Source: Akkermansia muciniphila (GTDB taxonomy: Bacteria; Verrucomicrobiota; Verrucomicrobiia; Limisphaerales; SIBE01). From it: a DNA stretch of 41,645 nt. The stretch is taken from the NCBI GenBank assembly GCA_945861765.1, contig CAMAWP010000019.1:1-41645 (forward strand). Reading direction: 5' to 3'. Below are positions 17,110-34,679 of this stretch, one piece after another. The notes under the pieces were generated by a model that had not been told where the DNA came from, did no database searches, and worked only from the letters and a program-made list of their open reading frames with translations. Both the position numbers and the translations under genes were made by a program. Positions within the stretch are counted from its first letter, which is position 1. Every line of letters begins with the position of its first letter.

Positions 17110-17171
17110 CCCCTCACCCGCCCTCCGGGCACCCTCTCCCCATCGGATGGGGAGAGGGGCGGGGTGAGGGG
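17110..17171. repeat. Long imperfect palindrome, CCCCTCACCC type
   Basis: The outer arms CCCCTCACCC (17110-17119) and GGGTGAGGGG (17162-17171) and the inner arms CTCTCCCCATC (17134-17144) and GATGGGGAGAG (17146-17156) make a nested hairpin of about 62 bases. It looks like a dispersed intergenic repeat. It also shows that the open frame upstream of 17090 is not coding. Confidence 0.75.
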
Positions 17172-17457
17172 GGCTCCGGCTCCGTCAAGGCTCATGGGCG
17201 GGAAGTGTGCCGAACTGCTGAGATGCCGGCGCGAGGCTAAAGGCGGAAGAGGATCGATCATTTTCTTACACGATGAGCGTAAGCCCGGCGGAGACGGGGG
17301 GTGCTGTCTGGTTTTCATGGTTTGGAATGTGAGCATGATTGCCAAAGACCATTTCCACAATTCTCTTTTTGACGGAGCCCTGAATTTCGGCCTGATTCTG
17401 ATTCCATATTTTGGATTCCATCAGCAATTCTTTCGGACTGCGCGCACTTCGTGATCC

Positions 17458-17519: not shown

Positions 17520-17595
17520 CTGCCCTAATGAGAATTGCTGGGATTCCATACTTTGGATTGCCATGAGCTCGCAATTTGGAGATAATAAATTTCTT

Positions 17596-18936
17596 ATGTT
17601 GAAAATCATGGGCAAATCGATGGGTCATTTTTGCGACGGGCTTTCACGGCGGGACTTCATGCGGATCGGAGGTCTGGCCCTGGGGGGACTTTCTCTCCCG
17701 CAATTGCTCGAGGCGGAGCAGCGCTCCGGCATTCGCAAGTCTCACAAAGCTGTCATCATGATTTACCTGGTCGGCGCGCCGCCTCATCAGGACATGTTCG
17801 ACCTGAAGATGGACGCGCCCATCGAAATTCGCGGACCGCACAAGCCGATTTCCACAAATGTGCCGGGCATCCAGATTTCCGAGCACATGCCCTATTGCGC
17901 CCGGATCATGGACAGGCTGGTGCCCATCCGCACTATGTATGGCTCCCCGAACGGGGACCACGATTCTTTTATTTGTTACACGGGCCGGCCGGTGCCGAAG
18001 CAGCCGCCAGGCGGGTGGCCATCTCTGGGTTCGGTGCTCTCGAAGCTCCAAGGCCCGTCCGAGCCGATGGTTCCCGCCTTCGTAGGTCTGGCGCCCAAGG
18101 CGGGGCATCCGCCCTACGGTTCCCCCGGACATCCCGGTTTTCTCGGTCCCGCCCACTCCGCTTTCCGCTCAGGCGGCGCAGGGATGCAAGACCTGAAACT
18201 CAATGAGATCTCGCTCGACCGCCTGCAGGATCGAAAGGCGCTGCTGGCCGGCTTCGATCAGTTTCGCCGCGAGATCGACCACAGTGGTCTCGTCGAAGGC
18301 ATGGACGCCTTCAAGCAGCAGGCCTTTAACATCCTGACCTCGAGCAAACTGATGGAAGCATTCGATTTGAGCAGTGAACCCGCGAAGGTGCGGGAGCGCT
18401 ATGGCAAGGGCGATTCGAGGAATTACGGCGACGGTGCGCCGCGCAATTGCGAGCATTTTCTGATCGCCCGCCGCCTGGTGGAAGCAGGCGCCCGTTGCGT
18501 CACCCTCAACTTCGGACGCTGGGATTTCCACAGCAATAACCACAGCGAGTTGCTCACGCATCTGCCCTTGTTTGACCAGGCCATGAGCGCGCTCGTCGAG
18601 GATCTTCATCAGCGCGGCCTGGACAAGGACGTGGCGGTGGTGGCTTGGGGCGAATTCGGGCGCACACCGCAGATCAACCCAGACGCCGGTCGCGATCATT
18701 GGCCGCAGGTCGGTTGCGCTTTGCTCGCGGGCGGAGGCATGAAAACCGGCCAGGTCATTGGCGCGACGGATCGCCTCGGCGGAGCCATTGAGTCGCGCGG
18801 CGTCCATTTCGGGGAAGTCTTCGCCACGCTGTATCACCAACTCGGCATCGACACGAGCCGCGTCACAATTCCTGACCTGTCTGGCCGTCCCCAATATCTT
18901 GTGGACGGCTGGCAGCCGATGCCGGAATTGGTTTAG
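17596..18936 (+). CDS. Tat-exported DUF1501 protein without an adjacent DUF1549 partner
   Basis: This DUF1501 protein has about 446 residues from the ATG at 17596. Starts at 17563, 17608 and 17620 also retain the twin-arginine motif LSRRDFMRIGGLALGG; 17596 was chosen for a GGAGA 13 bases upstream, which is only modest support. It differs from the other three copies in its first core motif (IYLVGAPPHQDMFDLKMDAP) and is shorter. The C-terminal part keeps WGEFGRTPQINPDAGRDHW and GQVIGATDRLGG. No DUF1549/DUF1553 gene lies next to it on the same strand; the nearest one is divergent, across a 0.5-kb gap, and already has its own partner. Function is otherwise unknown. Confidence 0.9.
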   Translation: MLKIMGKSMGHFCDGLSRRDFMRIGGLALGGLSLPQLLEAEQRSGIRKSHKAVIMIYLVGAPPHQDMFDLKMDAPIEIRGPHKPISTNVPGIQISEHMPYCARIMDRLVPIRTMYGSPNGDHDSFICYTGRPVPKQPPGGWPSLGSVLSKLQGPSEPMVPAFVGLAPKAGHPPYGSPGHPGFLGPAHSAFRSGGAGMQDLKLNEISLDRLQDRKALLAGFDQFRREIDHSGLVEGMDAFKQQAFNILTSSKLMEAFDLSSEPAKVRERYGKGDSRNYGDGAPRNCEHFLIARRLVEAGARCVTLNFGRWDFHSNNHSELLTHLPLFDQAMSALVEDLHQRGLDKDVAVVAWGEFGRTPQINPDAGRDHWPQVGCALLAGGGMKTGQVIGATDRLGGAIESRGVHFGEVFATLYHQLGIDTSRVTIPDLSGRPQYLVDGWQPMPELV

Positions 18937-19019: not shown

Positions 19020-20582
19020 TTAAGCGAAAACCGCCTGGATCACCTGGCCATGCACGTCGGTCAGCCGCCGCTCGAAGCCGTTGTGATAGTAGGTGAGGCG
19101 TTCGTGATCGAGGCCGAGCAGGTGGAGGATGGTCGCATGAATGTCGTGAACGGTGACGACGTTCTCCGCCGCCTTGTAGCCGAATTCGTCGGTCGCGCCG
19201 TAGCTGAACCCTTTTTTCACACCCGCGCCGGCGAGCCAGCAGGTAAATCCGCTCGGGTTGTGGTCGCGGCCCTGTGCGCCCTTCTGGAAGGTCGGCATGC
19301 GGCCGAATTCGGTGCACCACACTACCAGGGTGTCTTCGAGCAAACCGCGTTGTTTGAGGTCGATCAGCAGGCCGGCCGTCGGCTTGTCGAGCACGGGGCC
19401 GTGGAGGCTGTATTGCTTGAAGAGATCCTTGTGGCCATCCCAGTTGCTCACGCCTTCGCCGCCGGTCTGGTAGGCGCCGTTGAAAAGCTGCACGAAGCGC
19501 ACGCCCTTTTCGATGAGGCGCCGGGCGAGAATGCAATTGCGCGCGTAGGCGGCGCGAAGCTCGTTCACCTTCGATCCGCCTTCATCCGCGCCATAGAGGC
19601 GCAGGATGTGAGCCGGCTCGGTTGAGAGGTTGGCCACTTCCGGAACGGTCAACTGCATCCGGGCGGCTAATTCATAGCTCGCGATGCGCGCGGCCAATTC
19701 GCTGTCGCCAGGGAAGAGCTCGGCGTGACGCTCGTTGAGGCGCAGAAGAAAATCGCGCGTCGCGGCGTCGGTGCCGCCTGCGATGGGACCGGGCCGGGCC
19801 AGGTTCCGGATGGGATTGGTGGCATTGAAATCGGTGCCTTGAAAGGCTGCGGGGAGAAAGCCCGGCGCCCAATTGTTGACGCTGTTCTGCGGCTTGCCGC
19901 GCGGATCGGGAATGGCCACATAGGCCGGCAGGCTTTGGTCCTCGCTGCCGAGCGCATAGGTCACCCAGGCGCCGACGCTCGGGAAGCCATCGAGTGTGTA
20001 GCCGGTGGACATGTAGTTTTCGCCGGGACCATGCGTGTTGGTCTTCCCCTGCATCGAATGGACGAAGCACAAATCGTCCACGAGGGCGCCCAGGTGCGGC
20101 ACGAGATCGGAAACCATCTTGCCGCTCTGACCGCGCGGACGGAATTCCCAAGGGCTTTTGGACAACGCCCCTTGCCCGCCTTGGAACGTGATCAGTTTCT
20201 CGTTTCCGGGCATGGGCTGGCCGTGGCGGCGGATCAGCTCCGGCTTGTAATCGAACGTGTCGAGGTGGCTGCATGCGCCGCTGCAAAAGATGACCAGGAC
20301 GTTCCGGGCCCGAGGGCTAAAGTGCGCCGCCCTGGGCGCGTAAGGCCGCCCCGGTTGGAAGGAAGGACGCAACGCCTCTTTCCCCGACACGTTTGCCGCG
20401 AGCAAACCCTGGCGTCCCAGCAAGTGCGTCAAAGCGATGGCACCGAGGCCCAGGGCGGCGTCGGCGAGGAAACGGCGGCGGTTCAGCAGGGGATGAGAGC
20501 CGAAGGCTGAACCAGCCGCTTGTCTCAATGCTTCCCGCGCGGCTCCTGACCCCTGCCCTGTGACTTCTGCTGGCTGCTTCAT
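19020..20582 (-). CDS. Tat-exported DUF1501 protein
   Basis: This is a 520-residue DUF1501 protein. The ATG at 20582 overlaps the TGA of the upstream gene as ATGA, a strong coupling signal; the open frame farther upstream lies inside that gene. The Tat signal is [20 protein letters not shown]. Core motifs are [56 protein letters not shown] and [18 protein letters not shown]. It is the last gene of the minus-strand unit that begins with the pseudopilin at 24403, and the partner of the cytochrome/discoidin protein. Confidence 0.94.
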
Positions 20583-23530
20583 GGAATGAACAAAAACTCG
20601 TTGGCGTTCAGCACGGCCCGGCAAAGCGCGGGCAAACCGTGTTCCTCTGCGAACGGCACGGCGCTCTCCGCTTCCGCACGCCCTGGCGCCCGGTTGAAGG
20701 CCAGTTGCCACGCCAGTTGCACCTGGGCTCTGAGATCCCGTCCGGCCTCCTTTTTAAGCCGCTCGGAAAACTTTTCGGACTGCTGAATGACGAACCGGCT
20801 ATTGAAGAGATTCAACGCCTGCAATGGGGTCGTGGACACGCTGCGTCTGGGCATGACGAGACTGCCGTCGGGACAATCGAACGCGCCAAAGATGCCGTCC
20901 TGCTCCATGCGGACCTTGAAGGCGTAAACCATCCGGCGCGATTCAGCCGCGCTGAAATCCTCCTTGGGGTGGTAGTGATAAACATTTTCGCGATCCACGT
21001 TGTGAAGGAAAAAACCCGGCCCCCCGGCGGTGCGGTCGAGGTTGCCGCTGACGGCGAGGATGCTGTCCCGGATGGACTCGGCCTCGAGTCGGCGCGGCGG
21101 GAAGCGCCAGAGCAAACGGCTGCCGGCATCCACACTCAAAGCTTCTGCGCGCGGCGCGCTTGATTGGCGCCACGTTGCTGAGGTGAGAATCCGTCGTTGC
21201 AGCGCTTTGACGCTCCAGCCGCGCGCGATGAATTCGCTGGCCAGCCAGTCGAGCAACTCGGGATGCGAGGGCCGCGCGCCGTTCTTCCCGAAGTCGTTGG
21301 GCGTGTCCACGAATCCGACGCCGAAGTGGTGCTGCCAGACGCGGTTGACCCAGACGCGGGGCGTCAGCGGATTTTCCGGGCTGGTGATCCAATCCGCCAG
21401 TTTCAGGCGGCGCTCCCGCTCCGGGGTATTCGTAGTCAGCGTGAGCGGCTGGAACACGGCCGGCGTGCCGGGCGCTACCGTTTCGCGCTGCTGCATCGGG
21501 TCGCCACGGTCAAGCCGATAGGTGGCGCCGGGCTGAGTGAACTTGCCGGCATAGACCATCGGCGGCTTGGCCAAAGAGTCGCGCCGCCCGCGCGCTTCTT
21601 CAAGTTCGGCCAGCCACTTTCTGGCTTGTTCGGCTTCCGCCACGGAGGCGCTTTCGAAGCGATACACCGGACCCGTTGGCTTCGCAGCCTTGCCGGTGAA
21701 GGGTTCGCGGTCATCGGAACTCGCCACTTGTTGCCACGTGTTGAAATCGCGAGCGGCTTCGATTCGATACTTCGTCGCGAGGCGGTCGCCAAATGCCCCT
21801 TCGCGGTCGCGGCCCCACACGACGCGTTCGAGGCGCTCCACCTTCGGGAACTCCAACTGCACCCAGCCGCGTCCGCCTTCATTGGAAATCCAGGACCAAC
21901 TGTTCCCGAACTTGCCGTCGTTGAGATGTTCCAGTTTGTGAATCTCGAACCCGGACAGCGTGCCTGAGGCGGTGGCCTTCGCGCCAGCGCTCGCCAAAGC
22001 GGCGTTGCGGCCGCCAGCCCAGACTTCCAGTTCATCCAGGCATGGCTCGCCGGAATTCGAGGCGAGCACCGTGAAGCGAACGAACTTGGCTTCGACGGGC
22101 GCAAGGATTTCCTCGTTTTGCCGCGCGTTGACCGGCGGGCGCAGCGCGCCGGGAGTGGGGTTGTTGGCGGCGCCCGCCGTGGAGGGTTTGACGAGGAAGG
22201 GCGCCAGCCGGCGCTCCAGTTTTCCGATGGCGCCGTCAAGTTCTGCCAGCCGCGTCTGGTCCTCGGATGGGATGGGCAGCGCGCGTTCGCCATGTTTCAC
22301 GCCCGCGAACAAGGCGGCCATGGAGTAATACTCTCGATGCGCGATGGGATCGAACTTGTGCGAATGACAACGGGCGCAGCCGAGCGTGAGACCGAGAAAG
22401 GTTGTGCCCGTCGTGCCGACCATGTCGTCGAGTTCGTCCGCGCGCTGCTGTGCGGTCAGCACGGGGTCGGGACTGCCCACAATGTCCACCGGGCCGCCGA
22501 CGAGGAAGCCGGTGGCCACGTCCACGCCCAGAGCGTCGCCGGCGAGTTGCTCACGGACGAACACGTCGTAGGGCTTATCGTCGTTGAAAGCAGCGATCAC
22601 GTAATCGCGGAATCGCCACGCGTTGGGACGCTCGCGGTTAGTCTCGAACCCGTTGCTCTCCGCGAAGCGAATCACATCGAGCCAATGGCGACCCCAGCGT
22701 TCACCGTAGCGTGGGTCATCGAGCGCCTTGTCCACCAGACGCTCGAAGGCGTCCGGCCTGGCGTCGGTCACGAAAGCCGCGACCTCTTCCGGAGCCGGAG
22801 GCATGCCGAGCATGACGAAGTAGAGCCGGCGGATGAGCGTGACACGGTCGGCTTCGGGCGAGGCGGTCAGTGCTTTCCCGGCCAGCTTGGCGGTGATGAA
22901 CGCATCAATCGGGTTCGCGACAGGTGAAGTGTTTGGCACTGAAGCGGGTGCCAGCGGGCGCACGACGGGTCGAAACGCCCAGTGCAATGCCGCGGGATCC
23001 GCCTCTCCACGCTTGCCCTCCGGCCAGGCGGCACCCTGATCGATCCATGCGCGCAGCAAGGCAACCTGTTCAGACGAGAGACGTTTGCCTTCCTCCGCCG
23101 GCGGCATAACGATTTCCTTGTCCAGACCGGCGACAAACCGGATGAGCGGGCTCTCGGCGCTCTGGCCGGGGATGATGGCCGGCGCGTGATTTTCGCCGCC
23201 GCGCAGAGCGGCGCCCCTGCTGTCGAGCCGCAATCCGCCTTTCTGCTTTTCGAGTCCATGGCAAGCATGGCAATGCTTTTGGAGAATCGGTTCGATGTCT
23301 CTGACGAAATCGACCGTCGTTCCGGCCGAGGGCGCAAGCGCGGGGCGGTCAATGTCTCCAACACCGGCGATGAGGCAGAAGCCGGTCGCCCAACTCAAGC
23401 AGCCCAACGTCCGGATGACGATAATCGTCCGGTCGAGCGTTGAACTTCGGCCGCCACGAAGAGCGGCGCCGACGAGGGTCGAGTGGTGTTGTGTGGTCAC
23501 GTTCAACCTCTGGAGTCTGGCCTGCAACAT
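20579..23530 (-). CDS. Cytochrome/DUF1549/discoidin/DUF1553 protein
   Basis: This 983-residue exported protein has a hydrophobic segment at about 35-57. An N-terminal cytochrome domain has heme motif CHACH at residues 87-91. DUF1549 (about 145-400) includes the second CxxCH ([12 protein letters not shown], about 385). A discoidin/F5-8C-like module spans about 473-610 ([54 protein letters not shown]). DUF1553 runs from about 715 ([18 protein letters not shown]). The discoidin module is strikingly close to the one in the sensor kinase gene of the same locus, including the LRPPV lead-in. ATG at 23530 is the only Met start; a GTG at 23500 would also retain the signal region. The pseudopilin gene ends 12 bases upstream and the DUF1501 gene overlaps by 4 bases, so the three form one unit. 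Confidence 0.92.
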
Positions 23531-23542
23531 CCTCTCCAGCCA

Positions 23543-24403
23543 TCAGTCTTCCCGGATGGAAGCACGCTCTGACATAAAGACCATATCAAGGTTTCTGGGC
23601 GAAGGAACGACCAAGGGCATCGACTGATTCTTCACCGGTTGCCTGGTGCGCGGATCCAGCCACTTGTGAACTTCAGCGTGTCCATCCGCGAAGCTCAACC
23701 CCCCCGATCCATTGTGAGTGCTGGCGGGATAATCGATAATGTAAATCCGCGTGGGCGCCACGCCGTCGTTCATGGCGACTGCAAAATCGCCGAAGTTGAT
23801 GCCGTCGGGATGTTCGTCAATGAACACATAGGCTTTTGACGGGCCCATGAGCGTGATGTCAGACGACTTGCGGAAGACGCGGTATTTCTTCTGGGTCAGG
23901 TAGTGCAGCCAGTCATTCCGTGAATTCATCGCCTGGCTCAAGGAAATGCTGCGCACGCGCGGATAGGGCCGGCCGTTAATGATGACTTTGCTTGGATCGG
24001 CCGGGCACTTGTAGATGCCCGTTGCCTGCGTGTACGGCCACAGCTTCGCATAATTCGGATCTTTCAGGTAAAGAACATTCGTGTTGTGTTCGTTCTTCGG
24101 ATCATAATTGATGATGCCCCGGACCCAGCCGGCGCGTTTGTCTTCCATATCGTTCCAAACCAAATTATCGCTGAAATCATCCGCGTACATGATCCACCCC
24201 AAGGTCAACTGCTTCATGTTGCTCAGGCACTGAATTCCCTGCGCTTTGGTCTTGGCCTTGGAAAGAGCCGGGAGCAGCATGCCGGCCAGGATCGCGATGA
24301 TCGCGATCACGACCAGGAGCTCGATGAGCGTGAAAGCGCCGAACGCAGTGCGAGATTGGGGAGTGAGCTTGGTTTTACAGGCGGGGAATTGGGTAGTGCT
24401 CAT
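23543..24403 (-). CDS. H-X9-DG prepilin-like protein
   Basis: This 286-residue protein starts at the ATG at 24403 (24430 is an alternative). It has a type IV prepilin/pseudopilin N-terminus, [20 protein letters not shown], followed by the amphipathic helix [21 protein letters not shown]. Near the C-terminus is the H-X9-DG signature, [12 protein letters not shown], typical of the very numerous verrucomicrobial and planctomycetal prepilin-like proteins. These are probably processed by a prepilin peptidase and displayed by a type II secretion-like machine; their individual roles are unknown. It leads the operon with the cytochrome/discoidin and DUF1501 genes, and a palindrome (24522-24537) lies about 118 bases upstream. 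Confidence 0.92.
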
Positions 24404-24521
24404 AGGAGAATACGCGGCAGGTTCAACCACAGGGTTAGAGTCGATTACGACATCGTTAAGGTTGAGGTTCTCATTTCTTGTTCACCGCCAGGCAAGATAT
24501 CGCAACTCGGAGCATTAACAA

Positions 24522-24537
24522 TCCCCCGTTTGGGGGA
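24522..24537. promoter_or_regulatory. 7-2-7 palindrome, candidate response-regulator operator (site A)
   Basis: TCCCCCG-TT-TGGGGGA is a near-perfect inverted repeat with two 7-base half-sites and a 2-base centre. It lies 118 bases ahead of the pseudopilin start, between that gene and the end of the response-regulator gene. Read on the minus strand, the right half is followed by TTGTT, and the second copy (32840-32855) is followed by TGGTT. The NarL-family assignment is inference from geometry. Confidence 0.6.
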
Positions 24538-24626
24538 GTAAATCTTCAATCCGTCGCGCGCGCTCCGGTCTGCGCCTCGGGTGCGCAATGGCAGACCCAA
24601 CACATGTAAGCAAAAGGCCCGTCTCA

Positions 24627-25256
24627 TTATTTGCTGTAGTATTTGCAGGCGGCGGCGGTGCGAGACCGGACGTGCAGCTTATCATAGATGCTCTTCAAAT
24701 GGGAGCGAACCGTCTCCACGCTCACCGAAAGGAAATTGGCAATTTCTTTGTTGATGTAGCCTTTAGCCACGTAGGCCAGAACCTCCTTTTCGCGCTTGGA
24801 AAGATTCTCGGATTCCTTTGGGGAAGGGCCTTGCTTTTGAAAGGATTGGGCCACTTTGCGCGCCACACTGCTCGACATCGGTGCTCCGCCCCGGGTCACT
24901 TCTTGGATGGCCTTCAAGATTTCATCCGGCGGAGTGCGTTTTAACAGATAGCCGCTGGCGCCAGCTTGCAGAGCACGGAAAACCTGATCGCTGTCGTCAT
25001 AGACCGTCAGCATGACAATCTCCAGTTTGGGCAGGATGTCCTTTAGGCGTTGCACGCACTCGACCCCGGACATGCCTGGAAGATTGATGTCCATCAGCAC
25101 CGCGTCCGGCATTTCTTTTGGAATCCCGGCGAGGGCTGCCTCCCCTGAGGAATAAGAGCCGAGACAACAAAAGCCGCTGGCCTCATCGACCACCCGGGCC
25201 AAGGCCGTTGAAATCCGTGGATCATCCTCGACGATAGCGATGCGAATAGACATCAA
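24627..25256 (-). CDS. NarL/LuxR-family response regulator
   Basis: This 209-residue response regulator is of typical length. Receiver domain: acidic pocket E10-D11-D12, phosphoacceptor D56 (MDINLPG), T84 and K106. C-terminal LuxR-type helix-turn-helix at about 151-205 (LSKREKEVLAYVAKGYINKE, VSVETVRSHLKSIYDKLHV). Its start overlaps the end of the kinase gene by 4 bases (ATGA), so the two are a cognate pair. NarL-type regulators bind 7-2-7 inverted repeats, and two such palindromes lie upstream of the units on either side, which makes this protein the obvious candidate regulator. ATG codons at 25256 and 25253 are both possible starts. Confidence 0.96.
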   Translation of the reverse strand: MMSIRIAIVEDDPRISTALARVVDEASGFCCLGSYSSGEAALAGIPKEMPDAVLMDINLPGMSGVECVQRLKDILPKLEIVMLTVYDDSDQVFRALQAGASGYLLKRTPPDEILKAIQEVTRGGAPMSSSVARKVAQSFQKQGPSPKESENLSKREKEVLAYVAKGYINKEIANFLSVSVETVRSHLKSIYDKLHVRSRTAAACKYYSK

Positions 25257-28200
25257 GCAACCGGATGCAGCGATGGATTGAGCTGGAGCACGAGTCTAAT
25301 TTTTGTCCCCTGGCCGGACGCGCTCTCCACCTCCAACTTACCCCCGGCCTGTTCCAGCCGTTTTCTCATGTTGGGCAAGCCGTTGCCGGGAGCGGGCCGC
25401 AAAACTTGCTGCGCATTAAAGCCGCAGCCATTGTCCTCGATGGCGATGGAAAAGATACTCTCTTGCACCGACAATCGAATCCAAACCTCAGATGCCCCTG
25501 AATGTTTGACGATGTTGTTCAGGGCCTCTTTCACTGTCAGGTAGAGGTTGTGACGAACTTCCGCGGTAAGCGCAATTTCGGGCAGCAGCGTCGGCACATC
25601 GATACGACAACGGATTGGAGTAAAACGGAGAAATTCCACAGCGAATTTCGGGAGATAATCTGCCAATTGGTCGAGCGTGTCGTTCTTGGGATTGACGGCC
25701 CAGACGATGGCTTCCATGGTTTGGACAATCTGTCGTGCGCCGGTGGAAATCTGCCGAAAGTTCGCTTCCACATAGCGGGGAGCGGCGCTGTTTTTTTGGC
25801 CGAGATCGCTGAGGAGCGAAATCTGTGTCAGGCCGGCGCCCAAGTCGTCATGAAGGTCTCGCGCGATGCGGGTGCGCTCCTTTTCCAAGCTATGCTGGCG
25901 TTCGAGTCGTTCTAATTTGGTTTGGAGGTTTTTCCACACGATATAGCGGGCGGCGCCACCCAAGGCGGCGACAGTGGCCAGACCCGCGAAGCAAAGGAAC
26001 CACCAAGTTTTCCAAAACGGCGGAAGCACGATCAAGCCAAGCGAGGCGCCGGTTTCATTCCAAACGCCATCGTTATTGCTGGCCGTCACCCGGAAACGAT
26101 ATGGGCCGGCCGGCAGATGCGTATAGACCGCCGCCCGGCGTGTGCCACTCTCAATCCAAGTCTTGTCCAAACCTTCCATCCGGTACTTAAACTTGATCTT
26201 CTCAGGAGCGACAAAGCTCAGCGCTGTATAACGGAATTCCAAGCGTTGAACTCCAGGCAGAATCCGGATCGGATGGGACAAGATGGGAGGTTGGAGATCA
26301 GAGGCTGCCTCTGGGCGCAGTTCTCCGTCGATCAACATCTCCTCGATGACCACCGGCGGCAACGATTCATTCAGGGTGATATGTCTCGGGTCCACTCTCA
26401 CCACCCCCTTGACCGTGGAAAACCAGAGTGTGCCATCGCTCGCCTTCAGGCCCGCGGGATGAAAGCCGCCGGTGCATTCCAGACTCTCCATTCCTTCGTC
26501 TTTGCCGTACGAGACGGGATGCACAGAGGAAATCCTCCGGTCGGCCACGTGCAAGAGGTCCTGTTTTTTGATGCGGCTAATTCCCTGATTGGAGCCGAGC
26601 CAAAGGTGGCCTTGATCATCTTCGAGGATCTGCGAAATCACATTATCGATCAACCCCTGGCGAGTCGTTATGCTAAGGAATTGTCCCCCTTTCCAAAGAC
26701 TTAACCCGCCACTGGTGCCGATCCACAGAGTTTTTTCGGCATCCCAATAAAGCGTTCGGACAAAATCGCTGGCCAGCCCATCCTTGCGCGTGCAGGCAGA
26801 AAACTTCCCATCAGTCAGGCGATTCAAACCACCGCCGCTGGTGCCGATCCAGATTGTTCCGGGGCGCTCTTCGATAATGGCCGTGACAAAGTTCGCAGAC
26901 AAACCCTCTTTGGCGCCGTACTGCACGAATGCTCCGTCGCGAAAGTAATTCAGTCCTCCGGCGTAAGTGCCAATCCACAGCCCGCCCGACGAGTCTTCGC
27001 AAAGGGCCGCAATCACGTTGTCGGAAAGCCCATCGGCTTTCACGAAATTGACGATCTTGTCTCCGGTTTTCTGAAACAACCCGCCGCCCCAAGTGCCGAT
27101 CCAAAGACGGCCTTGCTGTCCCGCACACACCGACCAGATACATTCGTTATCGAGCAGATAGTTCACGTGATAAGGCGCAAAAACGTCGTGACGCCAAAGA
27201 TTCAATCCGCCGCAGTTCGACCCGATCCAGACCTGTTTCTCGTGATCCTCGGCTAAAGACATCGCCACGTCGTGCGACAAACCGTGGCGCGTGGTGAAGG
27301 TGGACAGCTTTTTCGCTTTGAGCCGGAGCAATCCGCCGCCGTTTGTTCCGACCCAAATGTTTCCTTCCCGATCTTCGAAGATGGAGGTCACGGAGTTGTT
27401 GGACAAACCTTCCTGAGTGGTAAAAACGGTGAACTTCCCGTCGCGCAGCCGGCTGAGTCCGCCCGAGGCTGTTCCCACCCAAACGTCGCCGTTGCGGGCC
27501 TCAAAGATTTCCCAAACCATGTCCGGCAACAAGCCGTGCTCCTTCCCAAAGACCGTCGCCTGTCCGTCCTTCATGCGCGCCACGTAGCCATTCGCCCCGC
27601 CGATCCAAACGCTGCCGGAGAATCCTTCGTGAAGGGAAGACAACGAGCTGAAACGGGCCGGCTCACCTTCAAAAGGCGGGACGGTCTCCCGGCCCTCTTT
27701 CAAGAGACTCAGGGTTGCCGTGAGGACCCAGAGATTGGCGGAACGATCTGCGCAAATCCGATAGACCGCGCGGGAGGCCAGTCCAAAGTGGTTGCGGTCT
27801 TCGATGATTTGTCCGTTCCGCAGGCAGTTCAAGCCGGAGGCAGTTCCAACCCACAAGTTGCCCGCGCTATCTTCCGTCATCGAGAGGACCACGTTGTCCG
27901 ACAATCCTGCGCTGGCGGTGTAGGGGGTGAACTGGCCGCCACGGTAACGGATCAAACCTCCTCCTTCTGTACCAATCCAGAGCGCTCCGGCGCGATCTTC
28001 GTACAAGCAGACAATGCGAGGATTGAGGAGTCCTTGAGCTTCTCCAAAAACGACAAACCGAACTCCGTCAAAGCGGACCAAACCGTTAAACGTGCCCAGC
28101 CAAAGATAACCATCCCGCGTTTGCAGAATGGCTCGGATCGTGTTGCTCGGTAGCCCATTTTCCGTTTGCCAGACATTGAAAGTGTATTCTCCGGAAACCG

Positions 28201-28297
28201 ATACGGAATCGTCCGGCGCGAGTGTGGTACCGACGGGCGCGAATCGATTCACAGTTATACGCTGGCCTGGATTGACGCCAAAATACTCCGCGCCCAT
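25253..28297 (-). CDS. Propeller-type sensor histidine kinase, main part
   Basis: This is the frame-intact part of the kinase, 1014 codons from the ATG at 28297, which probably is not the true start. Order: about a dozen Reg_prop blades (for example GNIWVGTNGGGLLRL, GTIWIGTSGGGLNRL), a Y_Y_Y domain (LEFRYTALSFVAPEKIKFKY), a transmembrane helix (WWFLCFAGLATVAALGG), a HisKA_3 dimerisation domain with phosphoacceptor H816 (RIARDLHDDLGAG) and a HATPase domain (EALNNIVKHSG, EDNGCGFN, GNGLPNMRKRLE). This is the architecture of kinases that sense extracytoplasmic polymers in Bacteroidetes and PVC bacteria. Upstream of 28297 the same frame continues meaningfully (DWKLVASSADRKPLE) and links to the discoidin segment at 28352-28952 after removal of one base. 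It overlaps the response-regulator gene by 4 bases. Confidence 0.94.
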   Translation of the reverse strand: MGAEYFGVNPGQRITVNRFAPVGTTLAPDDSVSVSGEYTFNVWQTENGLPSNTIRAILQTRDGYLWLGTFNGLVRFDGVRFVVFGEAQGLLNPRIVCLYEDRAGALWIGTEGGGLIRYRGGQFTPYTASAGLSDNVVLSMTEDSAGNLWVGTASGLNCLRNGQIIEDRNHFGLASRAVYRICADRSANLWVLTATLSLLKEGRETVPPFEGEPARFSSLSSLHEGFSGSVWIGGANGYVARMKDGQATVFGKEHGLLPDMVWEIFEARNGDVWVGTASGGLSRLRDGKFTVFTTQEGLSNNSVTSIFEDREGNIWVGTNGGGLLRLKAKKLSTFTTRHGLSHDVAMSLAEDHEKQVWIGSNCGGLNLWRHDVFAPYHVNYLLDNECIWSVCAGQQGRLWIGTWGGGLFQKTGDKIVNFVKADGLSDNVIAALCEDSSGGLWIGTYAGGLNYFRDGAFVQYGAKEGLSANFVTAIIEERPGTIWIGTSGGGLNRLTDGKFSACTRKDGLASDFVRTLYWDAEKTLWIGTSGGLSLWKGGQFLSITTRQGLIDNVISQILEDDQGHLWLGSNQGISRIKKQDLLHVADRRISSVHPVSYGKDEGMESLECTGGFHPAGLKASDGTLWFSTVKGVVRVDPRHITLNESLPPVVIEEMLIDGELRPEAASDLQPPILSHPIRILPGVQRLEFRYTALSFVAPEKIKFKYRMEGLDKTWIESGTRRAAVYTHLPAGPYRFRVTASNNDGVWNETGASLGLIVLPPFWKTWWFLCFAGLATVAALGGAARYIVWKNLQTKLERLERQHSLEKERTRIARDLHDDLGAGLTQISLLSDLGQKNSAAPRYVEANFRQISTGARQIVQTMEAIVWAVNPKNDTLDQLADYLPKFAVEFLRFTPIRCRIDVPTLLPEIALTAEVRHNLYLTVKEALNNIVKHSGASEVWIRLSVQESIFSIAIEDNGCGFNAQQVLRPAPGNGLPNMRKRLEQAGGKLEVESASGQGTKIRLVLQLNPSLHPVA

Positions 28298-28952
28298 TTC
28301 CAGCGGCTTCCGGTCCGCGGAAGATGCGACCAGTTTCCAATCCCCCCCATGCCTCGGCCACTTCGATTTTGTACTCCGTCACCAGCCGGTCGATGAACTT
28401 GCTTTCCCGGTCCCGGCCCCAAACTACCTTATTGATGTTTTCGACTGCCGGCAATTCGATGACCACCCAACCTTTGCCTGCTTCGTTTGAAATCCAACTG
28501 CGTCCGTTGCCGTAAACACCATCGTTGATGTGTTCCAGCTTGTGAATCCCGTATCCTGGCAAGGTGCCTGAGGCAGTGACTTTTCCGCCGGCCCTGGCTA
28601 GAGCGACGTTGCGCGGTTCTGGATTCGCCGTGAAGATTTCCAGCTCGTCCAGGCAAGGCTCGCCCCGGTTTGTCTTGAGAATCGTGAAGCGAACAAACCT
28701 GGCGTTAACTGGAGGAAATTCATCGACGTTCCGGCGCGAGTGAACTGGCGGACGCAAGGCCGTGGTGAAGTTGGAGCGACTGCCGCTGTCGTTGGTTCCC
28801 ACCAGGGAACGCTCAGCAAGATTCTTAGAATCAGGCCCAGCAGCTTGCATCTGCGGAAGCAAAACGCAGATCACGCTCGCGCCGAGGAAAGGGAGATGCA
28901 GAGTTCGCCAAACGCCCGGCCATTCTCTCTTTGTTTCATGGGTGGCGAGCAT
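28086..28952 (-). CDS. N-terminal discoidin part of the sensor kinase, separated by a frameshift
   Basis: From ATG 28952 the frame encodes an N-terminal export segment (LHLPFLGASVICVLLPQMQAAG) and a discoidin-like module: ARFVRFTILKTNRGEPCLDE, GIHKLEHINDGVYGNGRSWI and [19 protein letters not shown]. Just after YKIEVAEAWG it meets a run of seven G (28342-28348 as C on the plus strand). Beyond that the literal frame gives Arg-rich sequence and stops at 28086. Dropping one G continues into GDWKLVASSADRKPLE and then the propeller kinase frame; the paralogous module at 21.7 kb has [14 protein letters not shown] at the same point. The intact gene would be about 1232 codons, 25253-28952. Either the sequence has an indel error or the gene is frameshifted in this strain. 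Confidence 0.85.
   Translation of the reverse strand: MLATHETKREWPGVWRTLHLPFLGASVICVLLPQMQAAGPDSKNLAERSLVGTNDSGSRSNFTTALRPPVHSRRNVDEFPPVNARFVRFTILKTNRGEPCLDELEIFTANPEPRNVALARAGGKVTASGTLPGYGIHKLEHINDGVYGNGRSWISNEAGKGWVVIELPAVENINKVVWGRDRESKFIDRLVTEYKIEVAEAWGGLETGRIFRGPEAAGNGRGVFWRQSRPAYNCESIRARRYHTRAGRFRIGFRRIHFQCLANGKWATEQHDPSHSANAGWLSLAGHV
28342..28348 (-). other. G7 homopolymer at the kinase frameshift
   Basis: Seven C on the plus strand (G on the coding strand) lie exactly where homology switches frame between the discoidin segment and the propeller segment. A six-base run would fuse both frames. Confidence 0.8.
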
Positions 28953-29222
28953 CAAGAGCTTCTTATGCCGTTTTGAAAACTTCGAATCAAGCTCTGGCGC
29001 GTTGAGAATCCTTTCCGGGCGCGTCAGCAAATTGTCGCCACCGGCGGGCTTTCCGGCTGCGGTCCAAGCCGACATCCTCTCACCCGAAGCCTTTTGGAGC
29101 GCGGGGGAAGCGAAGCGCGGCACGGCTTTGGGCGCTCTGGACCCGTGCCGGCAAAGCCCCAGTCAATGGGCCGTCGCCACTCCGCTCTGTCGGCGCGCTC
29201 CCAATTGCGGGATAAAGGCCGC
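28953..29222. other. Gap upstream of the kinase gene
   Basis: These 270 bases lie between the five-repeat gene and the kinase. The minus-strand frame of the kinase stays open to 29123, but the residues are low quality. I see no TCCCCCG-type palindrome and no clear promoter here, so the kinase may be read from its own unseen promoter or through from the five-repeat gene. Confidence 0.5.
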
Positions 29223-32200
29223 CTATTGGCGCACACGATAGAACTTCACCGTGCTCGGACCTCTCGACACCGTTTGAGGGCTTGCGTTCGCGCCCGCCAC
29301 ATCGGTCCAAGGGCCGGTCACTGAATCCGCTGATTGAAGCGCTCCTGAACTGGTCCAGGAGATGACGAGGCTGCTCCCTTCTCGGCGGACACTCAGCACC
29401 GGACGGGCCGGAGCGGCGCTGAACACTTCGATTTCATCGATGCAGATTCCAACGTCTGAAGTCTTAAACCGCAGCCCGGTAGCCTGAATTGGGCCGCCGG
29501 CCGCCACGACCTCGAAACGATGCCTCAGCCACGGCTCAAAATCAGGTGCAGAAGCGCTTTTGTACTCAACGCTCCCGATCGTCGCCCACCCAGTTGCAGG
29601 ATTGCCTGTCTCGGCCGTATCCATTCCAGGATTCGCCACGGTGGTCACTTGCAAGGTGTAAACGCCACCCCACCGATCCCTCAATTGTCCTCCACAACAA
29701 TCTCCAGGATTATTTCCGTTGTCCCGTCCCCAGGCAATGCCGCCGATCGAAAGCACCTTTCCAAAGTTCAACCCGATGGAAGGCTTCGGATCAGGGATCC
29801 GGAAATCGGCAATCCAGCTCTTGCTATTGCCATAAAGACCATCATTAACGTTGTTGATGAGATGGATGCCTCCTCCATCATATTCGCTGGTGCCGAAAGG
29901 GGTCACCCCTTTGCTGGCGAGAGCCAGATTATCCGGCGCTGCCGCCCCTTCCGCCTCACTGTAGAAGTCTCCGTCATTTCCATCCCAAGTGATCGAATAT
30001 CCAGACTGGCTCTTGATCTCTAAGAGATCTCCCTCGTCCGCCAGGCTGACGTTCACCTCGATTTCGTCGATGGCCAGTGTCGGGTCGGACACTTTAATCC
30101 GCAGGCCAGTCGCCGGTATGGGATTTCCCCCCGCGCTGACATCAAACTTATGTCGCAAGTGAGGAGTGAAGCGAGCGTCCTTTTCGCCGGTGTATTCGAT
30201 CGTGCCCAGAGTAACCCAGCCGTTGGCCGGGTCATTGCCCTCGGTCATCGTCACGCCTGGGTTAGCCGCCGTCGTGATCTGGAGCGTGTAAATCCCCACG
30301 GCCCGATCCGCCAATTGCCCTCCGCAACAATCGCCCGCGTTGTCGCCGTTATCCCGGCTCCAGGCAATACTTCGGAGCGGAATGGTTTTGCCGAAGCTTA
30401 AGCCAATGAAAGGATTGGGGTCGGCTGGCGCCGTGAATTTCGCGATCCAACTATGACTGTTTCCGTAAAGCCCGTCGTTGATATGAACAATGCGGTGAAC
30501 TCCCGCGCCGAACTCACTGCTGCCAAAAGCCGCGGTCCCTTGGCTGGCCAAAGCCACGTTTTGCGGGGCGCGGGCCGGCGAATTCGTGTCATAAAACTTG
30601 CCGTTGTTCCCGTTCCAGGTGATGGAGTATCCGGCAGCTTTCTGAATGATCACCGCAGCCCGCGGCACACCCGACGGATTGACTTCGATCTCATCGATGC
30701 AAGTTGCGCTACTGGAAACTTTGATGCGCAAGCCGGTGGCCTGAATCGGATTGCCGCCCTTGGCCACGCTATAGCGGTGCCGCAGCCATGGGTTATAATC
30801 AGGCGGCGCCTGCCCGCTGTAGTCCACCGTGCCAATCGTCGCCCAGCCCGTCGCGGCATTGCCGGTTTCGGCAGTGCCGGCGCCGGGATTGGCAACCGTC
30901 GTTATCTGCACCGTGTAGGTCCCCTGCCACCGGTCTCTGAGTTGTCCGCCACAACAATCCCCCGGGTTGTTTCCATTGTCTCGGCCCCACGCAATGTCGC
31001 TAATGGAAATGATCTTGCCAAAGTTAACTCCGATGAAATCGCCCAGCGACGAATCCACACTGGGATCCACTTGCTGCGGGCCGGGAATCCAACTTTTGCT
31101 ATTGCCATAAAGCCCATCGATCACATTGTCGATATCGTGGATCGAGCCGTCGGCGAAGAGCTGTCCGCTGCCAAATGCTTTCGCGCCATTGGCCGCCAGG
31201 GCCGCATTGGCGGGTGCGCTGGCGCCTGGATTCGGACTGAAGAAATCGCCATCATTGCCATCCCAGAGGATGGAGTATCCGGGATCGCTCGCAATGGTCA
31301 CAAGGCCATCTGCCAGCGCTTGGAGGCCCGCATTCACATTGACTTCAATTTCATCGATGGCAGTTCCAGCCTCGGGCACCTTAATGCGGAGGCCGGTGGC
31401 CACGATGGGAGCGTCGCCTTGGGCCACATTGAAAAGATGCCTGAGATGAGGCTGCAAAGACGCTCCGGCACTCTTGTAATGAATTGTTCCGAGGGTGACC
31501 CATCCCGTGACCGCGTCGCCGGTCTCGGCTGTCTCTTTGTCGGGATTAGCCGCTCGCGTTACTTGCAAGGTATAAACACCCAGCGCGCGATCCGCCAGTT
31601 GGCCGCCACAGCAATCGCCCGCGTTGTCCCCATTGTCCCTGCTCCAAGCAATGTTCTTTATCTCAATCTTCTCGCCAAAATTCAGGCCGATAAAAGGGTT
31701 CGGGTCCGCTGGAGCGGTAAACTTGGAGATCCAACTATGGCTGTTCCCATAAAGCCCGTCATTGACGTTCGCGATAAGGTGAATTCCAGCGCCAAATTCT
31801 GTGCTGCCAAAAGGCTTCGTCCCAGTACTGGCCAGGGCCCGGTTGGCGGGCGCCCGCGCCGGTGAATTCGTGTCATAAAACTTACCGTCGTTCCCATTCC
31901 AACTGATGCTGAAGGTGGGGGCATTCGTGATGACGATAAAGTTTGAGATCGGTGGTGTCGGATCCGCCGGGGGATTCACTTCGATTTCGTCAATGCAAAT
32001 CCCCCCATCTGAAACTTTGATCCGCAGACCAGTGGCTGAGATGGGGTTCCCGTCTGCCAACACCTCGAAGCGATGTCGAAGGTAAGCACTGAAAAGAAGG
32101 CCGTCTGCGCCCGCCTTGTACTCAACCGTTCCGATCGTAGCCCAACCCGTGGCTGAGTTGCCGGTCTCCGGACTGTCGGCGCCAGGATTGTTGGCACGGG

Positions 32201-32741
32201 TCACTTGGAGTGTATAGATCCCGACCGCGCGGTCGGTGAAAGGGCCGGCGGGAGTGCGTTCTGAGTTGTCGCCGTTGTCTCGCGACCAAGCGACGCTGCT
32301 GATGGAGATTGATTTTCCAAAACTTAATCCGACAAAAGCGTTTCTGTCGGGAATCCGGAAATCGGAAATCCAACTGGAGCTGTTTCCGTAAAACCCATCG
32401 TTGACATTCACAAAATCATGAATCCCGCCCGGAAGAAAAGCCGTGCTTCCGAACGGTGTGACCCCTTTGCCTGCGGAAGCCAGATTATCCGGCCCCTTGG
32501 CGCCGGATTCGGGGCTGCTGTAGCCTCCGTTGTTGCCGTCCCAGGTAATGGAATAGCCGGCCTGCGCTGTAATGACAACGCGGTCGCTTTGCGCTTGTGC
32601 CGGCCCGAAGCAGCCGACTGCCAGCAAACCCGCCGCCAACCATGGCTTCAGGTGAATCGGAAACCGGAGGGGCTTCGAACTCTTGGCCGAGGTTTGAGCA
32701 GTTCTGGAAACTGACGAGCCGAACAATTTGGTTGTGATCAT
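29223..32741 (-). CDS. Secreted protein with five discoidin-like repeats
   Basis: This protein has about 1172 residues from the ATG at 32741; three more in-frame ATGs upstream (32750, 32759, 32774) include two 9-base direct repeats, so the start is uncertain. A signal peptide (LKPWLAAGLLAVGCFGPAQA) is followed by five repeats of about 205-215 residues. Each has a SITWDGNDG-type opening, a NVNDGLYGNSKSWI core, an IAWGRDNGNN strand, a TGWATIG strand and a CIDEIEV ending. Repeats 2-5 carry a vicinal Cys pair (GDCCGGQL); repeat 1 lacks it. The C-terminal 60 residues (SSGALQSADSVTGPWTDVAG, ending KFYRVRQ) match the common verrucomicrobial C-terminal sorting-like domain. Binding to a glycan or surface ligand is inferred from the discoidin-like fold. 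A palindrome lies 98 bases upstream. Confidence 0.92.
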   Translation of the reverse strand: MITTKLFGSSVSRTAQTSAKSSKPLRFPIHLKPWLAAGLLAVGCFGPAQAQSDRVVITAQAGYSITWDGNNGGYSSPESGAKGPDNLASAGKGVTPFGSTAFLPGGIHDFVNVNDGFYGNSSSWISDFRIPDRNAFVGLSFGKSISISSVAWSRDNGDNSERTPAGPFTDRAVGIYTLQVTRANNPGADSPETGNSATGWATIGTVEYKAGADGLLFSAYLRHRFEVLADGNPISATGLRIKVSDGGICIDEIEVNPPADPTPPISNFIVITNAPTFSISWNGNDGKFYDTNSPARAPANRALASTGTKPFGSTEFGAGIHLIANVNDGLYGNSHSWISKFTAPADPNPFIGLNFGEKIEIKNIAWSRDNGDNAGDCCGGQLADRALGVYTLQVTRAANPDKETAETGDAVTGWVTLGTIHYKSAGASLQPHLRHLFNVAQGDAPIVATGLRIKVPEAGTAIDEIEVNVNAGLQALADGLVTIASDPGYSILWDGNDGDFFSPNPGASAPANAALAANGAKAFGSGQLFADGSIHDIDNVIDGLYGNSKSWIPGPQQVDPSVDSSLGDFIGVNFGKIISISDIAWGRDNGNNPGDCCGGQLRDRWQGTYTVQITTVANPGAGTAETGNAATGWATIGTVDYSGQAPPDYNPWLRHRYSVAKGGNPIQATGLRIKVSSSATCIDEIEVNPSGVPRAAVIIQKAAGYSITWNGNNGKFYDTNSPARAPQNVALASQGTAAFGSSEFGAGVHRIVHINDGLYGNSHSWIAKFTAPADPNPFIGLSFGKTIPLRSIAWSRDNGDNAGDCCGGQLADRAVGIYTLQITTAANPGVTMTEGNDPANGWVTLGTIEYTGEKDARFTPHLRHKFDVSAGGNPIPATGLRIKVSDPTLAIDEIEVNVSLADEGDLLEIKSQSGYSITWDGNDGDFYSEAEGAAAPDNLALASKGVTPFGTSEYDGGGIHLINNVNDGLYGNSKSWIADFRIPDPKPSIGLNFGKVLSIGGIAWGRDNGNNPGDCCGGQLRDRWGGVYTLQVTTVANPGMDTAETGNPATGWATIGSVEYKSASAPDFEPWLRHRFEVVAAGGPIQATGLRFKTSDVGICIDEIEVFSAAPARPVLSVRREGSSLVISWTSSGALQSADSVTGPWTDVAGANASPQTVSRGPSTVKFYRVRQ
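29420..32590 (-). repeat. Five tandem ~640-bp coding repeats in a 1-B-C-B-C order
   Basis: Approximate repeat spans, in coding order: 31960-32590, 31330-31950, 30670-31315, 30040-30655 and 29420-30025. Repeats 2 and 4 share FYDTNSPARAP, FGAG and FTAPADPNPFIGL; repeats 3 and 5 share AWGRDNGNNPGDCCGGQLRD and TTVANPG. The alternation indicates duplication of a two-repeat block of about 1.3 kb. Confidence 0.8.
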
Positions 32742-32839
32742 AAATGTCATAAATGTCATCCGTCCCCGCCCCATGCTTCACGTGGAGCCTCATTCACCGA
32801 AATTGCTCTACTCCTAGCAAGAAAGAGGAAGCGAAACCA

Positions 32840-32855
32840 TCCCCCGTACGGGGGA
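32840..32855. promoter_or_regulatory. 7-2-7 palindrome, candidate response-regulator operator (site B)
   Basis: TCCCCCG-TA-CGGGGGA is a perfect 16-base palindrome with the same half-sites as site A. It lies 98 bases ahead of the start of the five-repeat gene. On the minus strand it is followed by TGGTT, similar to site A, which hints at a wider oriented motif. Confidence 0.62.
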
Positions 32856-33019: not shown

Positions 33020-34504
33020 TTACGGCTTCGCCACGGCTGCCGTAGCTGCCTCCCGCAACAATCGCAGCGCAGCTTCCACCAGCGCTTCGCCGGTTCCCGG
33101 CAGACAAGCCGAGTTCGTCACTTCATAGCTTCCACCGGCAAAGGCGGCGCGCGTCGGGATGTAGACGGTCTCGACGCAGTTGGCCAGTTCGATCACGAGC
33201 GTGTTGCGAAACGGCGAACCGCGTTTGATCGCCAGCCCCAAATCCACAAACACTTCACCCGGCAAACAGACGATGGCCAGATCGGAGCCGAAGGTGAACG
33301 TCGTGACTTCCAGCGGCAGTTCCTTGCCGATGCCGCCCCAAGTGTGGCTCAAGCCCCAGCCGATCCAGCGCGACGCTTCGGCGGGGGCGCGGCGTTGACG
33401 CAGTTGATCCACCATCAACAGACGGTAGGCCTCGACTTGTTGGAAGAAGTCCATGGGCTTGCCGGACTGCACGATCGTCAGAATGTCCTTGGATTTCTTG
33501 AGTTGCTCATCGGTCACTTCCCGTAGCGGAGCGTGAACCACCGCGGAGCGGACACGCAGCGTCGGATTGGTGATGATAGTCGTGCGATCCAGGCCGACGC
33601 GAATCGTTTTGCCCAATTCGCCGCCGATCATGTCGGTTTTGTTACGCTCCTTGGCCGACGGATCGGAATGATTGATGTCTCCGCAACAGCCGGCGCCGAA
33701 TAGTGAAATGACCTGCGGCCCCAAGTGTTCGCGCACACTGCGTTCGATAAAAAACGGATAGTCGGCGCTCCAGCGATTGCCTCCAACCGTATCCAGATGC
33801 AGCGCAAAATTACTGAGCACGGCCAGTGGTTGGTTTCCCTCAGCGGCGCGCGCAACCACGATGCCGATTTCCGGATCGATGGGGCCAGCGGCGCGGACGA
33901 CATCGGGATTCGCCAAGTTCATCCAGGTGTGCACGCTGCCGTCGCGCATTACGAAACGGCGGTTGAAGGAGACGGGTGTTTCCTGCCGTGCCGAAGCCAT
34001 GGCGAGAACGCCGGGCTGGGCTTTGCCGTGGGCTTGGACGACCGCATCGACAATACGGTCGATCAGATTGGTGACGTACCGCGCCCGCTCGCCGCCGGCC
34101 CCCGTTTTTCCCAAATGATTAAACAGGTCTTTGAAGTAGTCGGGGGCCGTGTGCGAATGCGTGGCGGCAACGACGAGGTTTTCGGCCGGAATCCCGGTCC
34201 TGGCCGCGACGATCCGACGCACTTCAGTCGAAAGATCTTTGGCGATGCCGGTCAGATCGCAAGTCACCAGCGCGGCCTGCTCGGTGCCTTGACGAAAGAC
34301 GATCGCGTGGGCTTTGAGCGGATCAATCGCGCCCGTCGCCAGCCGCTCGTGGTAGTAACCGGACATGGGGTAGCCGTTGGGCGGCGTGATGTCGGTCTCC
34401 GCGACACCAATGCGCAGCGGCTCCGCTGCGTGTCCCGCGCGAGGTTCCAGGCAGGAGAGCGCGGTTAGCATTATCGACAGCCAGAGCAATGGACGGGATT
34501 TCAT
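33020..34504 (-). CDS. Ceramidase-fold secreted protein, distinct subfamily
   Basis: This 494-residue protein starts at ATG 34504 with a signal peptide (MKSRPLLWLSIMLTALSCLE, ending near GHAAEP). It has the neutral-ceramidase N-terminal fold: IGVAETDITPPNGYPMSGYY, a probable metal site H116-S-H118 (AATHSHTAPD), NFALHLDTVGG, FGAGCCGDINHSDP and the C-terminal PGEVFVDLG. The nucleophile loop is GDIN where ceramidases have GDVS, so the key Ser is again missing, though the match here is closer than in the tandem pair at 5.2-7.9 kb. It carries extra sequence and belongs to another subfamily. Its role is unknown; it follows no obvious operon partner. Confidence 0.87.
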   Translation of the reverse strand: MKSRPLLWLSIMLTALSCLEPRAGHAAEPLRIGVAETDITPPNGYPMSGYYHERLATGAIDPLKAHAIVFRQGTEQAALVTCDLTGIAKDLSTEVRRIVAARTGIPAENLVVAATHSHTAPDYFKDLFNHLGKTGAGGERARYVTNLIDRIVDAVVQAHGKAQPGVLAMASARQETPVSFNRRFVMRDGSVHTWMNLANPDVVRAAGPIDPEIGIVVARAAEGNQPLAVLSNFALHLDTVGGNRWSADYPFFIERSVREHLGPQVISLFGAGCCGDINHSDPSAKERNKTDMIGGELGKTIRVGLDRTTIITNPTLRVRSAVVHAPLREVTDEQLKKSKDILTIVQSGKPMDFFQQVEAYRLLMVDQLRQRRAPAEASRWIGWGLSHTWGGIGKELPLEVTTFTFGSDLAIVCLPGEVFVDLGLAIKRGSPFRNTLVIELANCVETVYIPTRAAFAGGSYEVTNSACLPGTGEALVEAALRLLREAATAAVAKP

Positions 34505-34679
34505 GGGATCAAGGAGATTGGGTTGTAGGACACGCACTATTCGGGCGAAATGGCTGATCGTCAGGGTTACTGATAGGAATTTGCTTTTTCACGACCGTGC
34601 CCGACCCTGACCGTTCCGGGGCGTTGCCGCAAGAAATAAGCCCTTCAGAGGCGATGGAATCCCGCTCGGCCATCGCCCG

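Follow-up and report, generated by a model that had tools for sequence, protein, structure and literature searches.

Gene content of the discoidin cluster

The window analysed here is a stretch of 41,645 nucleotides (nt) from Akkermansia muciniphila (contig CAMAWP010000019.1) and belongs to a 7.27 Mb, 556-contig assembly (G000). Our subject is a block of minus-strand genes at 19020-32855 that encodes, in order of transcription, a five-module protein, a kinase, a NarL-type regulator, a pseudopilin, a PSCyt/discoidin/PSD1 protein and a DUF1501 protein, together with two copies of a 7-2-7 palindrome that are predicted to be operator sites. The features of the block, given in amino acids (aa) where protein lengths are concerned, are as follows:

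32840..32855, no strand assigned: predicted operator site 1, TCCCCCGTACGGGGGA, upstream of the discoidin-repeat gene, based on rarity and same-genus conservation
32811..32816, minus: weak -10-like TAGGAG, 23 nt past site 1 (TACAAG in the relative)
29223..32774, minus: probable secreted protein with a signal-like start and five CBM32/discoidin-like modules of 201-209 aa; probable ATG at 32741
28089..29123, minus: 5' part of the kinase gene, signal-like region plus F5/8 discoidin (28356-28703); probable ATG near 28952
28342..28348, minus: run of seven G, point of frame shift between the discoidin part and the kinase (relatives in one frame)
25253..28297, minus: main open frame of the Reg_prop / Y_Y_Y / HisKA_3 / HATPase_c sensor kinase (Pfam)
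24627..25256, minus: NarL/FixJ-type response regulator, receiver plus GerE (Pfam); ATG at 25253 overlaps the kinase stop
24522..24537, no strand assigned: predicted operator site 2, TCCCCCAAACGGGGGA in the sense orientation, after the regulator and before the pseudopilin operon
24494..24499, minus: -10-like TATCTT, 22 nt past site 2 (TATTTT in the relative)
23543..24430, minus: pseudopilin-like gene, N_methyl (Pfam); probable ATG at 24403
20579..23530, minus: PSCyt1/PSCyt2/discoidin (F5_F8)/PSD1 protein (Pfam); discoidin at 21752-22090
19020..20711, minus: DUF1501 protein (Pfam), last gene of an operon inferred from spacing

Pfam domains bore out the gene content that a first-pass annotation had read from the sequence, including a regulator gene that overlaps the kinase stop. 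The regulator matched PF00072 (91.6 bits) and PF00196 (66.1 bits) over cut-off, and its best NCBIfam match was NarL (PRK10651) at 142.7 bits, under the curated cut-off of 250. The kinase showed everything expected of a Reg_prop/HisKA_3 kinase, with propeller repeats, Y_Y_Y, HisKA_3 and HATPase_c all present.

The five-module protein had no Pfam match near cut-off and no NCBIfam match, and two of its modules scanned alone were likewise without a Pfam match. The structure predicted for one of the five modules (predicted local distance difference test score, pLDDT, 83.6) was a jelly roll of CBM32/discoidin type. Its best match was a galactose-bound CBM32 (Z 15.2, root-mean-square deviation 2.0 over 133 residues, 14% identity), Foldseek agreed, and about 30 module residues preceded the part aligned to CBM32. 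This module is predicted to have the CBM32 jelly roll, and a fold shared with CBM32 does not by itself show a ligand.

Palindrome rarity and promoter geometry

Both palindromes are exact (24522-24537 and 32840-32855), and the 98 and 118 bases by which they had been said to precede their genes agree with ATG codons read from the sequence at 32741 and 24403. Within the window the pattern was mildly unusual, as its five matches at two mismatches or fewer were equalled by 4 of 100 shuffles. In the whole assembly TCCCCCNNNNGGGGGA occurred at exactly two places, both of them the window palindromes, and the same pattern read backward occurred at none; with one mismatch allowed there were 7 places in comparison to 1 for the backward control. 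Chance or a repeat element as the origin of the palindrome was ruled out by this genome-wide count. A relaxed search for CCCC-N6-GGGG with a -10 box at the operator distance returned site 2 as its single genome-wide match, site 1 being missed because its box is TAGGAG. No such site was found upstream of the regulator itself in the window (a genome of another family, G243, has one 61 nt before its regulator).

A general link of the palindrome to DUF1549 genes, for which the first-pass annotation had suggested a search, was not supported. Only the discoidin-bearing PSCyt unit has a site; none accompanies the remaining pair of PSCyt/DUF1549 genes in the window, at 627-3473 (DUF1501 at 3479-4951) and 13236-17360 (divergent DUF1501 at 17563-18936). 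The site therefore tracks the discoidin unit rather than the type of gene.

The distance from palindrome to -10 box was close to constant. Seven sites form the TCCCCC group (two in G000, two in G004, a genome of the same genus, and three in G243); five of these had TANNNT at 22-23 nt and the other two had TA at 23 nt, a spacing equalled by 0 of 5000 shuffles. Sites from a sister group of regulator loci had TANNNT exactly at 23 nt in 20 of 20 cases. These 20 were chosen by sequence pattern, and a fairer test is an unpicked count in which a 7-2-7 dyad was accepted anywhere in the 500 bp downstream of a regulator if 6 or more of its 7 pairs matched, and TANNNT was counted at offsets 5-49. Over 100 non-redundant regulator loci, including the window, G004 and G243, there were 19 cases at offset 23 and 4 at offset 22, with 0-4 at each of the others. 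The 250 bp upstream of the regulators gave one dyad with TANNNT at each of 22 and 23. Ten of 110 loci (L045, L063, L100, L174, L184, L186, L187, L191, L193 and L195) had been left out as duplicates or as having fewer than 60 bases downstream.

A fixed spacing of this kind is that of an activator promoter whose site abuts the -35 region, and at site 2 the sequence TTGTTA occupies the -35 place immediately after the palindrome. With the -10 box taken to start at the usual -12, we infer that the dyad centre lies at -42.5 or -43.5 (about -43).

Conservation of the sites and of the lectin-like genes

In the family survey TCCCCCNNNNGGGGGA was present in five of eight genomes, and the centre given by the first-pass annotation was matched only in G000 and G004; G005, G006 and G007 have the pattern with other centres. 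G004 carries exactly two copies in 5.7 Mb, at the orthologous places before the five-module gene and between the regulator and pseudopilin genes, and the intergenic DNA around the palindromes has largely diverged between the two genomes.

A stricter pattern scanned across 320 genomes of the order matched six genomes including G243, and no related genes were found at the sites in three others (G104, G237 and G297). A looser pattern gave 25 places in 16 genomes in comparison to 7 places in 6 genomes for the backward control. Eight of these 25 rows, or seven distinct sites (two each in G000 and G004, three in G243), sit in regulator-bearing clusters, a count that takes in G243:C397, whose NarL-type regulator is 35% identical to that of the window. 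The other 17 rows include two that are also in G243. In 15 of the 17 none of the window's six proteins had a relative in the stretch read, and two (L153 and L157) showed a pseudopilin-like match alone; G104, G237 and G297 of the stricter scan are represented among these rows. The view that every pattern match is this operator was rejected on the strength of these 17 rows, which may reflect chance or another regulator. Run across the order in this way, the refuting check proposed with the first-pass annotation (a random distribution with no link to genes) did not refute its reading, though 17 of the 25 matches lie outside such clusters.

The G243 contig is ordered kinase, site, regulator, site, discoidin-repeat gene, pseudopilin (68% identical) and alpha-L-rhamnosidase. 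The last of these (L147:8086-11094), following the lectin and pseudopilin genes, is a hint at substrate. Contig G243:C397 holds a further TCCCCCAAACGGGGGA (L148:11287-11302) with a -10 at 22 nt ahead of the different, 35% identical NarL-type regulator, and a PA14/F5-8 gene lies about 3 kb beyond it.

Searches with the regulator matched 192 of the 320 genomes at E 1e-55 or better, and of 30 fetched loci all were read for dyads and 12 for genes. G132 has the order kinase, regulator, operator and lectin gene, the lectin being 67% identical in the part read and 59% over a longer stretch; the corresponding values for the G305 lectin gene are 57% and 51%. In G191, G101 and G073 a large protein comes after the operator, identified as lamin-tail/CotH by Pfam in G191 and judged alike by eye in the other two, and the lectin gene is next in G191 and G073.

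Of the 320 genomes, 30 carry the lectin module itself at E 1e-20 or better (the weaker matches are looser relatives), and 15 further stretches from 14 genomes were surveyed. A C5/G5 palindrome immediately precedes the target gene in G028, where TANNNT is missing at 22-23, and in G229, where it lies at 23; in G246 and G131 the palindromes in this position are imperfect. No palindrome was found just before the lectin gene in G154, G159, G160, G165, G072, G189, G190 and the second G101 lectin gene (C421), while in G103 and G192 the contig ends within the gene, whose start is out of view. Other families, as in L234-L239 and L248, also keep the lectin, pseudopilin, DUF1501 and PSCyt-discoidin genes grouped, sometimes all and sometimes only some of them, and this extends to loci with no operator found.

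Two genes neighbouring the block in the window, for a ceramidase-like protein (33023-34537) and a DUF7133/HEAT/cytochrome protein (35545-38706), showed no link to it in any test.

Possible operator recognition and a candidate small RNA

Adjacency and rarity suggest that the regulator of this block binds the palindrome. In the unpicked set, all seven loci with C at half-site position 6 had R as the recognition-helix residue aligned with Lys188 of NarL, a residue that contacts bases. This helix residue was H in 16 loci, 15 of which had A at half-site position 6; the H-class exception, L112, looks spurious. On the regulator tree two changes were needed for each of the two operator labels, and the bootstrap had not settled.

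In the sister branch, for which 25 of 80 loci were read, what follows the operator (for example TCACCAGTACTGGTGA, with a -10 at 23 nt) in the loci read is no gene; it is a conserved stretch of about 120-190 nt that ends in a terminator-like hairpin with compensatory changes. From its sequence this stretch is a candidate small RNA, positioned as follows:

L040, L044, L053, L057, L058, L061, L062, L070, L073, L082, L083, L089, L093, L115: candidate small RNA just downstream of the regulator gene

Five loci scanned at the gathering threshold gave no Rfam match to the candidate. A small-RNA model matched 102 of 320 genomes of the order at E<=1e-5, the weakest being doubtful, and had no match in G000, G003 or G004; no small RNA was found in the window. 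Among 30 loci fetched from the model matches the regulator adjoined in 22, and the operator with a -10 at 23 was present in 28 when dyads with a CC/GG core were accepted under a less strict rule, some of these loci being among those that built the model. At two loci, L266 and L269 (G120:C11 and G096:C331), small-RNA copies lacking a regulator in the stretch read, two in tandem at each locus, carry operators, and the presence of the operator at these regulator-less copies supports the operator reading.

Sensor kinase and the discoidin link

The first-pass annotation described a kinase with an N-terminal discoidin module. This holds in relatives, where the gene is one open frame (1232 aa in G004, and 1197 aa in G191 and 1206 aa in G305, both of other genera), and in the window the discoidin and kinase frames differ. 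The window gene is either mis-assembled or freshly broken. A programmed frameshift was considered and is not supported because the G run is absent from G004.

The kinase discoidin matched eight places in the genome, namely itself, the PSCyt discoidin (65% identical), five stretches of the lectin protein and one place elsewhere, so that seven of the eight, itself included, fall inside the cluster. All five lectin-gene loci with a readable kinase N-terminus (G000, G004, G132, G191 and G305) have this discoidin on the kinase; G131 holds a fragment of the same make-up. Of 80 other regulator loci, 17 with less than 3.6 kb upstream were left out. A kinase homologue lay upstream of the regulator in 60 of the remaining 63, and only one of these 60 kinases (L045, on a contig that ends just after the regulator) carried this discoidin. 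The lectin gene was not found in any of the 63, within 7 kb downstream or to the contig end. Eight kinase loci of the family genomes, one of them in G000, are also without this discoidin. Sensor and targets therefore have a near-private discoidin family in common, and discoidin kinases co-occur with discoidin-repeat genes.

Discussion

Gene order, a predicted module fold, the conservation and rarity of the palindrome, its promoter geometry and the co-occurrence of discoidin kinases with lectin-like genes were all shown by computation. On this basis we consider it probable that the block is a self-contained two-component circuit that activates the lectin-like gene and the pseudopilin/PSCyt-discoidin/DUF1501 operon through the two palindromes. 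A signal would bind the extracytoplasmic discoidin (CBM32-like)/Reg_prop propeller part of the membrane kinase; the near-private discoidin family common to sensor and targets makes a glycan or glycoconjugate, of the class bound by the targets, the probable signal. The kinase would pass phosphate to the adjacent NarL-type regulator, whose dimer would bind the 7-2-7 palindrome TCCCCCG-NN-CGGGGGA directly upstream of -35 (centre about -43) at both promoters. Bound there, it would recruit polymerase and activate rather than repress transcription of both units, and the products would be a five-module lectin array, presumably exported, and the pseudopilin/PSCyt-discoidin/DUF1501 operon proteins. The first-pass annotation had proposed much the same scheme. 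Its DNA half, a predicted operator at two promoters, is well supported by form, rarity in the genome, conserved position, -10 distance and the helix trend. Its sensing half is plausible, on the indirect grounds of the shared discoidin family and the co-occurrence, and the DUF1549 link is the part that was not supported.

Several observations weigh against this proposal. The -10 at site 1 is poor and the window kinase is frameshifted at its G7 run. The 100 loci of the unpicked test share descent, and their 23 dyad/-10 cases are not independent events. The match between helix and operator is confounded and stays a trend, with no specificity code claimed, because several other helix columns co-vary with position 6, L091 breaks the trend, and L062 and L077 follow it in one half-site only (C in one, A in the other). 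A third genome of the genus, G003 (60% complete), was found to have neither the palindrome nor the lectin module; the CCCCCC/GGGGGG palindrome of G305 is not followed by TANNNT at 22-23, and in G067 the regulator is followed by an operator-like site and -10, yet by no lectin gene in the next 9 kb. Finally, four f52 genomes (G154, G159, G160 and G165) keep the lectin-pseudopilin-DUF1501-PSCyt genes wholly or largely with no operator found just before them, and the target genes therefore do not need the operator there.

It is unlikely, in our estimate, that the circuit is degenerate in this strain, with a sensor split by the frameshift and targets left unregulated or constitutive. The one-base change at G7, set against the open frames of G004, G191 and G305, would fit such decay, but the kinase part is an uninterrupted frame of 1014 aa with 78% identity to the relative, and an assembly error is as likely because the genome is a 556-contig assembly.

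Repression at the same operator, in which the regulator would cover the -35 region until released by the signal, is likewise an improbable account. A dimer bound at the palindrome, which directly adjoins the -35 place, could stand in the way of polymerase, and NarL-type proteins can also repress. The tight 22-23 nt spacing to the -10, however, and the lack of a -35 consensus after the palindrome at most sister-group sites (CTGGCAGG and CTAGCAGG) both look activator-dependent. NarL activates from about the same place (PMC7419079).

Alternatively, the palindrome could be the site of another DNA-binding protein, its nearness to the regulator being an operon bystander effect. Related C5-N4-G5 sites in G266 lie near other secreted-type protein genes (L161, L164 and L165) with no regulator relative in the 3 kb read, and one G243 site precedes a different NarL-type regulator, both of which agree with this alternative. 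We nevertheless judge it quite doubtful, as there are just two copies in each of two genomes, both flanking the kinase/regulator pair, the dyad/-10 signal adjoins the regulator gene in 23 of 100 loci, and the sister operator also accompanies small-RNA copies that had no regulator in the stretch read. A role of the palindrome as an RNA hairpin, whether attenuator or leader element, is very improbable: six T-A/C-G pairs round a 4-nt loop would fold, as read from the sequence, but the -10 boxes lie at a fixed distance downstream of the palindrome, which that promoter would therefore not transcribe, and the half-sites vary in register (TCACCAG, TCCCCCG, TCATCCA) like protein sites.

An activating two-component circuit thus remains our preferred interpretation, and it may belong to a wider pattern that we put forward tentatively. 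Pairs of a Reg_prop kinase and a NarL-type regulator in this verrucomicrobial order could form a whole family with its own operator beside the regulator gene, centred at about -43 wherever it was found, the half-sites changing in step with the recognition helix. One branch would have turned this arrangement to an undescribed small RNA, and the window branch to a closed lectin loop, its sensor and its exported targets having a single private domain of sugar-binding type in common. If such a loop is true, the lectin array could present the ligand to the sensor or buffer it.

In summary, the first-pass annotation saw a real, conserved regulatory unit whose kinase needs a frame check. A dedicated sensor, operator and co-regulated lectin array offer a direct handle, as the ligand of the discoidin would reveal what switches such a unit on. 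The operator rule (a 7-2-7 dyad, 22-23 nt, then TANNNT, beside the regulator gene) may also allow targets to be predicted from sequence for many regulators of this kind, and a widespread candidate small RNA is already indicated by it.

Comparison with known systems

In the non-subscription literature searched, no paper joined Verrucomicrobia with two-component systems and discoidin, Verrucomicrobia with Reg_prop, or a two-component propeller regulator with discoidin; among the matches listed, papers on palindromes, operators and response regulators and papers on small RNAs looked unrelated. For the sister branch a comparison is offered by GacA, a regulator of NarL/FixJ type. A palindrome upstream of the small-RNA genes of the GacA/rsmX/Y/Z system is described as a potential response-regulator site (PMC2375449). 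The sister-branch candidate differs in adjoining the regulator gene and is absent from the window, its sequence relation to the rsm RNAs being judged by the Rfam scan.

At ogt NarL activates from -44.5; at yeaR-yoaG it does so from a single 7-2-7 site that lies just upstream of -35 (PMC7419079). The -10 of E. coli ogt is TATCTT (PMC7419079). The window system resembles NarX/NarL at these promoters in its receiver and GerE regulator, in a 7-2-7 repeat just upstream of -35 and in the -10 of site 2, which is identical to that of ogt. It differs in its half-site (TCCCCCG), in a sensor built of discoidin and propeller in place of a nitrate sensor, and in having two exact sites in the genome.

The window kinase has the same domain order as Reg_prop/Y_Y_Y/HisKA_3 kinases that work with LuxR-type regulators, and is set apart by the discoidin encoded, here in another frame, on its N-terminal side, a domain seen in 1 of 60 homologues. 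CBM32 and F5/8 type C modules have a fold like that predicted for the window module, at 14% identity. The planctomycete-type PSCyt/PSD1 genes of Verrucomicrobia have the same domain set as the window unit, which differs in being tied to a dedicated regulator, a predicted operator and a lectin array.

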